From contig NZ_JH597761.1 in NCBI RefSeq assembly GCF_000243315.1, forward strand, positions 831,656 to 895,655: a stretch of DNA of 64,000 bases, in the 5' to 3' direction. The stretch comes from Metallosphaera yellowstonensis MK1. Lineage in GTDB: Archaea; Thermoproteota; Thermoprotei_A; Sulfolobales; Sulfolobaceae. The notes beneath the pieces are model-generated. The model had not been told where the DNA came from and searched no databases. It was given only the letters and a program-made list of their open reading frames with translations. Positions 41,050 to 49,984 of this stretch are shown piece after piece. The translations under genes were made by a program, and so were the position numbers. Numbering within the stretch: position 1 is the first letter of the stretch; each line of letters starts with the position of its first letter.

Positions 41050-42282
41050 ATGAAGACTCCTGAAGACGGGAAGAAGATCACATTTGAGGGAGGTAAATGG
41101 AAGGTTCCTGATAAGCCAATAATCCTCTACGTTGAGGGAGACGGAATAGGGCCTGAGATAGTCTCGTCTGCCATCAAGGTCATAAACGCTGCAGTGGAGA
41201 AGGCGTACAAATCCAAAAGGGAGATAAAGTGGATGGAAGTGTTGGCAGGAGAGAAGGGGGAGAAAGTGAAAGGTGACCGATTTCCCAAGGAGACACAGGA
41301 GGCTCTCCTCGAGTACCGAGTGGTCCTCAAGGGTCCCCTAGAGACCCCAATAGGAAAGGGATGGAAATCGGTCAATGTGGCCATAAGGATGATGTTGGAC
41401 CTCTACGCAAACATAAGGCCGGTGAAGTATATAGAGGGGATAGAGAGTCCTCTCAAGGAGCCCCAGAAGGTGGACATGGTAATATTTAGGGAAAATACGG
41501 ACGACCTCTATAGGGGGATAGAGTACCCTTATGACACCCAGGAGGCCAAGAAGATAAGGGACTTTATGAGGAGGGAACTGAAGGTTGAAGTGGAAGACGA
41601 CACCGGAATAGGTATCAAGCTGATAAGTCGTTTCAAGACGGAGAGGATAACCAGGATGGCCATGAATTACGCCATAGCCCACGGAAGGAAGAAGGTGACC
41701 ATCATGCACAAAGGGAACGTCATGAAGTATACGGAGGGTGCCTTCAGGGATTGGGCCTACGATCTCATTAAGAGGGAGTACAGGGATAAGGTGGTGACCG
41801 AAGAGGAGATATCTAAGCAGTATAACGGTCAGGTTCCGCCTGGGAAGATCCTGGTAAACGACAGGATAGCAGACAATATGTTCCAACAGATAATAACCAG
41901 ACCGGACGAATACGACATAATCCTAGCCCCGAACGTCAATGGAGATTACATATCCGATGCTGCAGGTGCATTGGTAGGGAACATAGGATTGTTGGGTGGT
42001 GCAAACGTCGGTGACTCAGGTGGGATGTTCGAGGCCATACACGGCACCGCCCCCAAGTACGCAGGGAAGAACGTGGCGAACCCCACAGGTATAATAAAGA
42101 GTGGGGAGCTAATGCTCAGGTTTATGGGGTGGACTGAAGCTGCAGACCTTGTGGAGAGGTCAATACTCACTGCCATTTCCTCCAGAAAAGTCACCCAGGA
42201 TATAGCGAGGTTCATGGGAGTGAAGCCATTAACTACCAGCGAGTATACCAACGAGCTTATAAACATAATACACACCCTCTGA
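41050..42282 (+). CDS. icd: NADP-dependent isocitrate dehydrogenase
   Basis: A 410-residue decarboxylating dehydrogenase of the IDH/IPMDH family. Signature pieces include VEGDGIGPEIV near the N-terminus, FRENTDDLYRGIEYPYDT with the substrate Arg and Tyr region, MHKGNVMKYTEGAFRDW, and the C-terminal NANGDY-like APNVNGDYISD and DSGGMFEAIHGTAPKYAGKNVANPTG region, with no internal break. It makes 2-oxoglutarate for the TCA cycle. A weak TATA sequence lies about 25 nt before the ATG. It is monocistronic, between two element C copies. Confidence 0.95.
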   Translation: MKTPEDGKKITFEGGKWKVPDKPIILYVEGDGIGPEIVSSAIKVINAAVEKAYKSKREIKWMEVLAGEKGEKVKGDRFPKETQEALLEYRVVLKGPLETPIGKGWKSVNVAIRMMLDLYANIRPVKYIEGIESPLKEPQKVDMVIFRENTDDLYRGIEYPYDTQEAKKIRDFMRRELKVEVEDDTGIGIKLISRFKTERITRMAMNYAIAHGRKKVTIMHKGNVMKYTEGAFRDWAYDLIKREYRDKVVTEEEISKQYNGQVPPGKILVNDRIADNMFQQIITRPDEYDIILAPNVNGDYISDAAGALVGNIGLLGGANVGDSGGMFEAIHGTAPKYAGKNVANPTGIIKSGELMLRFMGWTEAADLVERSILTAISSRKVTQDIARFMGVKPLTTSEYTNELINIIHTL

Positions 42283-44170: not shown

Positions 44171-44515
44171 TCACTTTGACTCCTCTACTCCCAGAGCGTC
44201 CAGTATCCTCTCGAGAACCTTCTCAAGACGCTTCTCCTCCTCCCTTAACACAGATATCTCTCTCCTCATTGAGTTAGTTTTCTCTAACATTGCCAAATGC
44301 TCCTTAGCATCTTTGCCCAGGTACTTACTCTTCAGCTTACCTTCCTCCCAATACCTGAGGTAGTAGTACGTCCTCCCGTTAACCAGTTTACTCTCTACGT
44401 GACCTGATGGGAGGCCCTTAAGCTCCTTTTCCAACGTCTCTCTCCTCTTCCTTACCTCTTCCAATCTCTCCTCAACCTTCCTTACCATCATCCAAACTGG
44501 CGTCCTCGTAGCCAT
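44171..44515 (-). CDS. Coiled-coil protein co-encoded with orc1-3
   Basis: A 114-residue basic/acidic helical protein. Two predicted coils (about 10-40 and 80-108) flank a [19 protein letters not shown] segment that resembles a small DNA-binding beta-hairpin. The frame begins at ATG 44515 or, more probably, ATG 44491 ([12 protein letters not shown]), and overlaps the orc1-3 stop by 17-44 bases. Its conserved partnership with the initiator suggests a role in replication, but this is inference. Confidence 0.55.
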
Positions 44516-45662
44516 ATCCCATCTCCTCGTTCAGATTCTCGTCCAACACCTTGATCACCTTATCCCTGTCCTGCACCTCCACATACTTCTTTATCCCGCC
44601 CGCCCTCCCCCTATTCATTATCTTGATCTTTATGATCCCGAACATGTCCAGTTCAGAAACTATGTCGGAGAACCTCCTGTAGGACAGGGGCTTCTGCCTG
44701 AGCTTGTCGCAGAGCTTGGTGTAGATCTTGTGGGCTGTCACCACGTCGTCGGACACGACTATGGCCCTGAGGGCCAACTTATAATGGAAGGGAAGCGACT
44801 TGATGGCTTCCAATAGCCTTTCCTGCTCATATTCCACTATGGCCTTATCCACATGTTCCTTCCTGATGAACCCTATCCCTGAAGCGAGCTGTGCAGCCCT
44901 GAAGAGGAGATTGACCGCCTTCCTGGCATCCCCGTGCTCCCTCGCCGATATTGCCGCGATGTAGGAGAGTATCTCATCGTCGTAGGTTCCCCCTATTAGC
45001 CCGTACTCAGCGTACTTGGCCAATATCTCCTTGAGCTGGATCGCGTCGTAGGGTTTGAAGATAACCGAAGGACCCAGAGACGAAAGGACCCTCGGCTCCA
45101 TGTAGTCCCTGACGTTAATGTCGTTGCTGATCATGATCACGGATATGTCTGCGTCGGCCCTGAGGAGTTGATATAGCACTATGTCACCCCCTCTCCTCTT
45201 TACGAGGGTGTCTACCTCATCCAGGTAGATTATGGCCTTCTTTCCCCTCATGACTCCCTTGATCTTCTCCACGTATTCCCCCAAGTTCACGCCGTGTCTA
45301 GGGACGATACTGTTGGTGAGCTTCTCAGCTATGACCGAGAGGACCGCCTGCGGAGTTCCCCCAACCTCCCTGGAGTTCAGGTAAACTTGCCTAACCTTGC
45401 TGTACTCCTCGTCCTCCTTCTTGACCTCCTCTATTTCGTTGTAGATGTACTTTACCACGAAAGTCTTCCCCGTACCGGTTAGCCCCAGGAAGAGGTTGGA
45501 GAACTTGACCTCGTTTTTTACGAAATACCTCACCGCTATTGCAGTCTCCCTTATGACGTCCTCACGAAAGGGGATCTCGGTGAACACGGAAAGGGGATCT
45601 ATGAACACTTTGGGGTTCTTTATAACCTCACCCTTCCCTCCCTTCAGAGCCTCTCTGATCAC
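44472..45662 (-). CDS. orc1-3: Orc1/Cdc6 replication initiator (Orc1-3 type)
   Basis: A 396-residue AAA+ initiator. Walker A is GLTGTGKT (60-67) and Walker B is [12 protein letters not shown] (about 145), and sensor and winged-helix regions follow, ending in the [22 protein letters not shown] wing. I recognise it as the Orc1-3 (Cdc6-3) paralogue by its [15 protein letters not shown] opening and [17 protein letters not shown] core. In Sulfolobus this protein binds at oriC2 beside its own gene. Start is GTG 45662. Its 3-prime end overlaps the coiled-coil gene. Confidence 0.93.
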
Positions 45663-46105
45663 GCCGTTTCATACGTTTACCTAGTTAAATGTAGTTTCCT
45701 CTATTTCTCAGTAATATCCCCTTTAAGTCTCAATGCGTTATTACCAAATCAATCTATTACAGTATAACTGCAGTGTTTCCACTGCCATTTATACTCCAAT
45801 ATCCAGAGAGAGACCGTGAATTTCCGTCGTTTCCTCTGATGACGTGAAGTGAGGTTCTGGACGGACGTGACATTGATATACAAACTAGTAAAGTGAGAGC
45901 ATATGATTAGGGGAGTGAGAAACGCTGCTTGAATACAGGGACAGGATCACAGGACGTTAATACCATCGAAACCGGTCATACTTATTCTTTATTTATGAAC
46001 ATTTGTTCATTTAAAATTTCAGGTCACTCATATTAGGGTTCGTAATACGCTAGAAACACTGCATATATACTGTATCTAGGAAACCCTAATAAGTTACTAC
46101 GTCTA
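45663..46105. other. Candidate replication origin (oriC2-like) beside orc1-3
   Basis: A 443-bp A/T-rich gap upstream of orc1-3. It contains GTTTCCACTG (45775-45784), which matches the core of the archaeal origin recognition box, and three GAAAC[AG]CTGC-type sites: GCAGTGTTTC at 45770-45779, GAAACGCTGC at 45919-45928 and GAAACACTGC at 46053-46062. The 11-mer TGCAGTGTTTC at 45769 recurs inverted at 46053. A 7-bp inverted pair, ATGAACA-TT-TGTTCAT, lies at about 45996-46011, and ATTAGGGTT/AACCCTAAT form a wide repeat at about 46032-46090. It is the expected place for oriC2. Confidence 0.6.
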
Positions 46106-46402
46106 ATGCTCTACATGGTAAAACTTTCTGAGGAGAATATAAGGGAGTGGTTGAAGTTACTCCAGGGCTGGAAATACGAGAACAGCTCTTTGGTAAAGGA
46201 GTTCAAGTTCAGGGATTTCTCGGCGTCGGTCAAGTTCGTAGACCTCGTCAGGCCCGTGGCGGACTCCATGGATCATCACCCCGACATCTGCATCTCCTAT
46301 AACAAAGTTGTGGTTACTCTCACCACCCATGACGAGGGAGGAGTCACTGAACTAGACGTGAAGCTAGCTGAGAAGATTGAGGAGCTCCAACGTTACGTCT
46401 AA
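46106..46402 (+). CDS. Pterin-4a-carbinolamine dehydratase-like protein
   Basis: A 98-residue single-domain PCD/DCoH protein. It has the DHHPDICISYNKV motif (about 55-67) with the two adjacent histidines, and LTTHDEGGVTELD for the third, matching the active site that dehydrates 4a-hydroxytetrahydrobiopterin. In archaea the substrate pterin is uncertain. ATG 46115 (MVKLSEE) may be the real start. It lies just right of the putative origin. Confidence 0.85.
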   Translation: MLYMVKLSEENIREWLKLLQGWKYENSSLVKEFKFRDFSASVKFVDLVRPVADSMDHHPDICISYNKVVVTLTTHDEGGVTELDVKLAEKIEELQRYV

Positions 46403-46405
46403 AAA

Positions 46406-46421
46406 TTAACCGGGGAGTTAA
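46406..46421. repeat. 16-bp motif TTAACCGGGGAGTTAA (copy 2 of 4)
   Basis: Starts 3 bases after the stop codon of the pterin dehydratase gene. The next copy is 141 bases away at 46547. Confidence 0.6.
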
Positions 46422-46546: not shown

Positions 46547-46562
46547 TTAACCGGGGAGTTAA
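46547..46562. repeat. 16-bp motif TTAACCGGGGAGTTAA (copy 3 of 4)
   Basis: Identical to copy 2 over 16 bases and the surrounding ATTAA/AAC bases. It lies in gene-free sequence right of the candidate origin. Confidence 0.6.
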
Positions 46563-48693: not shown

Positions 48694-49984
48694 CATGAGA
48701 CTGGCGGGCATAGCCTTTTTACTCTTAATAGTCTTACCCTTGACCTCCACGGCACAGACTCTACCTCTCTCTCAGCCTGCCCTCTCTTTCCCCACAGGAG
48801 TGACCTTCTTCCCCCTCACCGGCACAATTTCAACCACCTTCGTCGAGGGACAGACCAACCTAACTTACCTCCACATTGGTGAGTCCTACATCTCCGGCCA
48901 ACCCTTCACTTACGGGAACGCATCGCTTCAGCTCAACGCCATGCTGAACGGATCTTTCTGGGCCCAGGACGTCATGTTGTTTCACCAAACCTCCAACGAT
49001 ACCTTCACTGTCACTTTGGTTATCAACTTCTGGAACTTGACTGGGCCTTTCACGGCACTACACTCCAATACCACTACGTTTAGGAACTTGGGCGTGTACT
49101 GTTATCAAGGCCCCACCTTCAACGTTACCTTACCGGTCTCGCTGGCGCTCTTCATGAACTCTTCTGGCGGATTAAGCTTCGGTTACTCCCTGAACGGGGA
49201 TAGGAAAGTATTCCTAACCCTGCCCTTTTCAGGTCAGTTCAGGTTAGGGGGCCTTTCAATTGCTGGCCTTCCCAACGATTTGGAGCTGGTTTGGGGAGGA
49301 CCTGGGGGAGGTAGTGTCGTGGACATGAGTGCAGTGGGTTTCGCTGAGCTCTACTTCCTCAATGCCACCAAGTTGAACATTGTCCCATCGGCCCTCTCAG
49401 TGGGTCTGGACACTGCAGAGTCGGCCTACGGCGTGGTCGTCACTCCAGACCTACAAGACATTAAGCTTCCCTTTGCATTGATTAACCGGGGAGTTAACTC
49501 ACCTTCTGTGCTCTGGCCCGTCCCTCCAACGATATCCACTGTGCAGAGGAACACGACCGTAAAGGTTACCCTGCAATACGGCAATTATACCTTCTCGAAT
49601 CAAGAGGTGGAGATCCTGGTTCCGCACGGACTGGGACTCAAGGAGGAGTACGTAGGTTTAACTAATTCCAGCGGCGAGGTAACGTTCTTTAACGTCACCC
49701 AACCCTTATATGTGGTCTATTTCCCCGGCAACTATTCGCTCTCCGAGTCTTATGCTGTCTCATCTCCACAATTGAACAAGCTCATCTCCTCTGTGTCCTC
49801 GGAGTTCAGGTCGTTAGTCGACTTTCTGAAAAGCTACAACTTCAGTAAGGCATTAAGTTCCGACTTCCAACACGTCAAGTATAAGCAACCTAAAACCGAG
49901 ACGAACTACCTCCTCCTGGAGGTCATAGCAGGGTTCTCCATTGGACTGATAGCCTCAGCAGTGTTCATAAGGAGAAGTTCATGA
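48671..49984 (+). CDS. Thermopsin-like secreted protein
   Basis: A 437-residue secreted and anchored protein. The signal peptide is FMRLAGIAFLLLIVLPL (about 8-24). The body shows the thermopsin (A5) family pieces ASLQLNAMLNGSFWAQDVM and ELVWGGPGGGSVVDMSA, with many N-glycosylation sites. A C-terminal helix (YLLLEVIAGFSIGLIASAVF) precedes basic residues and is probably a membrane anchor. Thermopsin proteins are acid proteases of the cell surface, but whether this one is active is unclear. One copy of the 16-bp motif lies inside it at 49482. Confidence 0.75.
   Translation: MRDNKNMFMRLAGIAFLLLIVLPLTSTAQTLPLSQPALSFPTGVTFFPLTGTISTTFVEGQTNLTYLHIGESYISGQPFTYGNASLQLNAMLNGSFWAQDVMLFHQTSNDTFTVTLVINFWNLTGPFTALHSNTTTFRNLGVYCYQGPTFNVTLPVSLALFMNSSGGLSFGYSLNGDRKVFLTLPFSGQFRLGGLSIAGLPNDLELVWGGPGGGSVVDMSAVGFAELYFLNATKLNIVPSALSVGLDTAESAYGVVVTPDLQDIKLPFALINRGVNSPSVLWPVPPTISTVQRNTTVKVTLQYGNYTFSNQEVEILVPHGLGLKEEYVGLTNSSGEVTFFNVTQPLYVVYFPGNYSLSESYAVSSPQLNKLISSVSSEFRSLVDFLKSYNFSKALSSDFQHVKYKQPKTETNYLLLEVIAGFSIGLIASAVFIRRSS
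49482..49497. repeat. 16-bp motif TTAACCGGGGAGTTAA (copy 4 of 4), inside a gene
   Basis: The same 16 bases occur inside the thermopsin-like gene, where they encode part of LINRGVN. Its presence in coding sequence argues against a simple terminator role for the motif. Confidence 0.6.

Follow-up and report, generated by a model that had tools for sequence, protein, structure and literature searches.

Anatomy of the predicted replication origin oriC2 beside orc1-3 in Metallosphaera yellowstonensis MK1

Our analysis indicated that the gap immediately upstream of the orc1-3 gene in the heat-loving archaeon M. yellowstonensis MK1 very probably holds the Metallosphaera oriC2, a chromosomal replication origin that would be specified by the Orc1-3 protein from the adjacent gene. 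The gap (45663-46105, 443 bp) lies between divergently transcribed genes; all such coordinates refer to the window, that is, the whole stretch of 64,000 nucleotides analysed here (C10:831656-895655, on a 1.26-Mb contig of a 2.8-Mb draft genome). The origin reading is well supported because the same parts occur here in the same order as in the mapped oriC2 of Sulfolobus relatives. The original prediction had also placed oriC2 beside orc1-3, and this was upheld by a Cdc6-3 ortholog, a site arrangement like that of the relatives' oriC2, a ucm element, and conserved sites. The existence of oriC2 in this genus is not new, since three oriC have been marked on plotted chromosomes including that of M. 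sedula (PMC12284271). Our literature search found no detailed published description of a Metallosphaera oriC2, and the additions made here are its detailed anatomy, a site form specific to Metallosphaera, and an origin-flanking 16-mer, which together provide a sequence-level map.

The orc1-3 (cdc6-3) initiator gene occupies 44472-45662 on the minus strand and encodes 396 aa from a GTG start. Its product matched TIGR02928 with 242.7 bits, above the cut-off, and contained the Cdc6_C and Cdc6_lid domains. The Walker A (GLTGTGKT) and Walker B (YLDEVD) motifs were legible in the ORF, and the nearest solved relative was PDB 2qby_B, the S. solfataricus Cdc6-3/Orc1-3 (E 1e-197). These matches clearly mark the gene as orthologous to S. 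solfataricus Cdc6-3/Orc1-3, and it is both intact and strongly conserved. The gap thus lies directly upstream of a Cdc6-3 ortholog, as is typical of Sulfolobales oriC2. Two more orc1 genes were found in the genome (C17:446500 and C19:562670), and the ORB/ucm origin adjoining the former was taken as oriC1.

The putative oriC2 module consists of four initiator-type sites and a central ucm. The outer site A (TACAGTATAACTGCAGTGTTTC; 45758-45779, plus strand) forms an inverted repeat with the outer site A′ (GAAACACTGCATATATACTGTA; 46053-46074, minus strand). Between them lie the inner site B (GACCGTGAATTTCCGTCGTTTC; 45812-45833, plus strand), which has the ancestral ATTTC form and can be aligned with a site in congeners and in other genera, and the inner site B′ (GAAACGCTGCTTGAATACAGGGACAG; 45919-45944, minus strand), which has an aligned site in most congeners. 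The four sites therefore make two nested inverted pairs (A-B and B′-A′) with a span of 317 bp, the kind of inverted arrangement about a centre expected of Sulfolobales oriC2. The ucm element (GATATACAAAC; 45875-45885, minus strand) is at this centre. It agrees with the published ucm ATTATACAAAC, which we took from the affinity oligos in PMC12141716, at nine of 11 positions. Across the 2.8-Mb genome there are exactly two copies of the 11-mer, this one and another between the inverted ORBs of oriC1 upstream of orc1-1, so that the ucm of the organism's own oriC1 is identical. Site B and the ucm had been overlooked in the original prediction. A TTAGGG box (46033-46038) on the inner side of A′ is invariant in six Metallosphaera and present across genera, while its left partner, CCCTAA, is present in congeners and degenerate here.

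All sequence features checked from the original prediction were recovered at the positions given there. These were GTTTCCACTG at 45775-45784, the three GAAAC[AG]CTGC sites at 45919 (+), 46053 (+) and 45770-45779 (−), and the 11-mer TGCAGTGTTTC at 45769-45779, which recurs in reverse complement at 46053-46063. The 11-mer proved to be part of a longer inverted repeat of 22 nt (45758-45779 and 46053-46074), whose arms are complementary at 20 of 22 positions (91%). The gap had been called A/T-rich, which applies to a moderate degree only (62.1% A+T, against 51% for the contig). Its A/T-richest stretch (45978-46021; 85% A+T over 40 bp) is possibly a DNA unwinding region, and the gap thereby contains the A/T-rich region usual for Sulfolobales oriC2. 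As to the other inverted repeats proposed, ATGAACA-TT-TGTTCAT (about 45996-46011) could be seen by eye, but our repeat search of the gap gave no long inverted repeat beyond the 22-nt pair, and the gap alignment showed that ATGAACA-TT-TGTTCAT is not conserved in congeners.

The outer sites follow a conserved motif, TACAGTATA-N3-GCA-N2-GTTTC. A search of the genome with this outer-site pattern returned exactly two exact matches, the arms A and A′. We then scanned the 1.26-Mb contig with a weight matrix trained on the five congeners, own genome left out; among about 2.5 million contig positions, A′ ranked 1, A ranked 2, B′ ranked 5, and B ranked 22. One lone sequence at C10:159587-159608, close to an Hsp20-like gene, was identical to arm A at 21 of 22 positions. 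This copy and another site-like copy at C10:100866 were rejected as further origin sites, since each was solitary and the pattern search gave it no partner. The same type of search revealed no third site of this kind in the congeners.

Alignment of the gap from six Metallosphaera revealed several invariant blocks: the GTTTC repeats with a TATA-like element by orc1-3, TACAGTATA-N3-GCA-N2-GTTTC, TTAGGG, and GAAAC-N3-GC-N4-TATACTGTA. With feature boundaries set after viewing the alignment, 43 of the 151 columns inside the listed features were invariant, versus 9 of the 292 outside them (p 2e-14). The outer-site pattern was exact twice per genome in all six species, and always at this arm pair only. 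Lack of conservation in close relatives had been named at the outset as a result that would speak against an origin; instead, the sites were conserved in 5/5 congeners and across the family. The ucm match does not extend to the whole genus, because three congeners (G007, G008, and G009) read ATTAGCCAAAC at this position in place of the TATACAAAC form.

The A-B-ucm-B′-A′ order also recurs in other Sulfolobaceae genera, beside orc1-3 or icd, with a spelling specific to each genus. There the module has outer sites of the form TACAGTAAATTTC-N4-GTTTC, a pair of inner sites that end in GTGAATTTC-N4-GTTTC, CCCTAA/TTAGGG boxes, and a centre reading GTTTGTATAAT. Both order and spacing are alike in most genera with orc1-3, which indicates that the gap module is orthologous to theirs. 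The oriC2 of Saccharolobus and Sulfolobus (S. solfataricus, S. islandicus, and S. acidocaldarius), which depends on Orc1-3, is likewise beside or near orc1-3, with inverted pairs of GTTTC-ended sites flanking a central ucm. For S. islandicus LAL14/1, oriC2 has been reported next to cdc6-3, near position 800 bp, where ORBs surround a UCM at its centre (PMC3718332). The two groups differ in their outer sites, TACAGTATA-N3-GCA-N2-GTTTC in Metallosphaera versus TACAGTAAATTTC-N4-GTTTC in Saccharolobus/Sulfolobus oriC2.

They also differ in the second neighbour of the origin. In Metallosphaera this is a gene for pterin-4a-carbinolamine dehydratase (46106-46402, plus strand; PF01329, E 1.7e-30), a genus-specific neighbour outside the origin, whereas in most other genera it is icd; the neighbour gene varies by genus. 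Here icd was found at 41050-42282, on the far side of orc1-3, and since it borders the origin in other genera, this position suggests a local rearrangement or inversion of the origin-orc1-3 unit in Metallosphaera.

At the orc1-3 end of the gap we identified a promoter-proximal array (45666-45698), in which GTTTC-type repeats, spaced at roughly 10 bp, surround a TATA-like ATTTAAC (45684-45690, minus strand). This array is conserved across the family. An alternative is that the repeats of the gap form an operator, through which Orc1-3 or another regulator controls orc1-3 and the pterin dehydratase gene, with no start of replication. The position of the gap between divergently transcribed genes would agree with this, as would the GTTTC repeats surrounding the predicted TATA element of orc1-3. 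However, the sites do not always stay with the orc1-3 promoter. In the relative G015 an intact module adjoins icd at C1:1865568, 41 kb from orc1-3 at 1906993, and in several members of the genus designated g6 a distance of 540-850 bp, with a small ORF in between, separates it from orc1-3. Further, the neighbouring gene differs among genera, and the module has a ucm at its centre. We therefore consider an operator quite improbable as the whole explanation. Since the module is intact beside icd in G015, it is a free-standing element and not merely an orc1-3 operator: the four sites and the ucm move as a unit, able to part from the initiator gene. The GTTTC array remains at orc1-3 even where, as in G015, the module sits elsewhere, so the two are distinct elements. 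We infer that the array is the promoter/operator of orc1-3, separate from the origin module, and it possibly serves in orc1-3 autoregulation.

Alternatively, the module could be a decayed or dormant oriC2, an inherited sequence that no longer fires in this species. Its left CCCTAA box is degenerate, site B′ is weak, and the ucm departs from the published form at 2/11 positions; moreover, archaeal origins can be dormant (PMC4595724). Yet the outer arms are the two top-scoring sites on the contig, the oriC1 of the same genome carries this very form of the ucm, and orc1-3 itself remains intact and highly conserved, so that loss of function seems just as improbable as the operator. Chance repeats, though short inverted repeats are common in A/T-rich gaps, are refuted with near certainty by the exact conservation in five other species and by the score of 20/22 for the best 22-nt inverted repeat, which none of 500 dinucleotide shuffles of the gap attained (maximum 17) and which was reached by 3 of the 2,840 equal-size tiles of the 1.26-Mb contig.

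If the module is an active oriC2, a mechanism can be proposed on the model of PMC12141716 and PMC5333045. Orc1-3, which defines oriC2 (PMC12141716), would bind the four sites with a defined polarity, from both sides and facing inward, and would recruit MCM between them. A ucm-binding protein (UBP) on the central ucm would then assist the departure of MCM, and replication forks would leave in both directions. All three Sulfolobus origins have the ucm as a common motif, and firing of oriC1 is no longer detectable when this motif is mutated (PMC12141716). The anatomy given here was derived from sequence, and binding and firing are extrapolated from the Sulfolobus relatives; neither UBP nor whiP was located in the genome. 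Cumulative GC, AT, RY, and MK skews over the 1.26-Mb contig were noisy, and their strongest turn (308 kb) coincided with a hydrogenase-maturation gene cluster. The MK curve alone turned within 3.3 kb of the site, a weak signal in noisy skews.

Comparison with the other origins bears on which type of site is present. The Sulfolobales oriC1, with Orc1-1 and ORB1-3, resembles the module in having inverted initiator sites around a ucm. oriC3, which depends on WhiP, likewise has a ucm (PMC3718332, PMC12141716), and its initiator gene differs. The original prediction had described the sites as ORB-like on the basis of GTTTCCACTG, and this part did not hold. A canonical ORB combines a GTTTCCACTGGA core with a CCCCTC string, and such ORBs (CCCCTC-GTTTCCACTGGA) are present at the organism's own oriC1. 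In contrast, the gap contains the 10-bp core only once, as GTTTCCACTG in site A, and no CCCCTC. None of the five congeners has this match, which is exact here, and for this reason we regard the sites as of the Orc1-3 type and not as canonical ORBs. GTTTCCACTG may be a species-specific weak contact for Orc1-1.

We also identified a 16-mer outside the module, TTAACCGGGGAGTTAA at 46404-46421, with further copies at 46547-46562 and 49482-49497. It is a near-palindrome, TTAACTCCCCGGTTAA, dispersed in Sulfolobaceae genomes. In the six Metallosphaera, 14 copies were found within 4 kb of oriC2, against 0.24 expected, and in other genera the 16-mer abuts the outer origin sites. When TTAACTCCCCRGTTAA was searched as WAACTCCCCRGTTWA against eleven genomes, nine had 6-20 copies each and the other two had one, while the reversed control of the pattern gave no match. 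SegB centromere-like sites are likewise dispersed and palindromic, with a few near origins (PMC12284271), but the SegB motif TCTAGASTCTAGA differs from TTAACTCCCCGGTTAA, and the 16-mer was rejected as a SegB site. The TTAACTCCCC of the 16-mer was not found in the Sulfolobus literature searched.

Two further readings are put forward tentatively, as rather unlikely. One is that the outer Orc1-3 sites of Metallosphaera, joined by the inner sites in some species, changed together from the ATTTC to the GCA type; the other is that TTAACTCCCCRGTTAA is an undescribed parS-like or chromatin origin element of Sulfolobales. The change of site type, if true, would be a naturally occurring example of co-evolution between an initiator and its origin towards a new specificity. 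Both a joint change of specificity in an Orc1 initiator and its sites and a possible role of the flanking 16-mer at origins can now be tested.

A 2.5-kb inverted pair of 16-mers was considered as a possible oriC3 and rejected; the copies checked fell within coding genes that belong to a conserved cluster, no origin features were identified, and Rfam gave no match at the pair. Another copy of the 16-mer was observed near orc1-1 (C17:446389). Some copies were located inside genes, where they encode LTGEL, and others in plasmid-like clusters.
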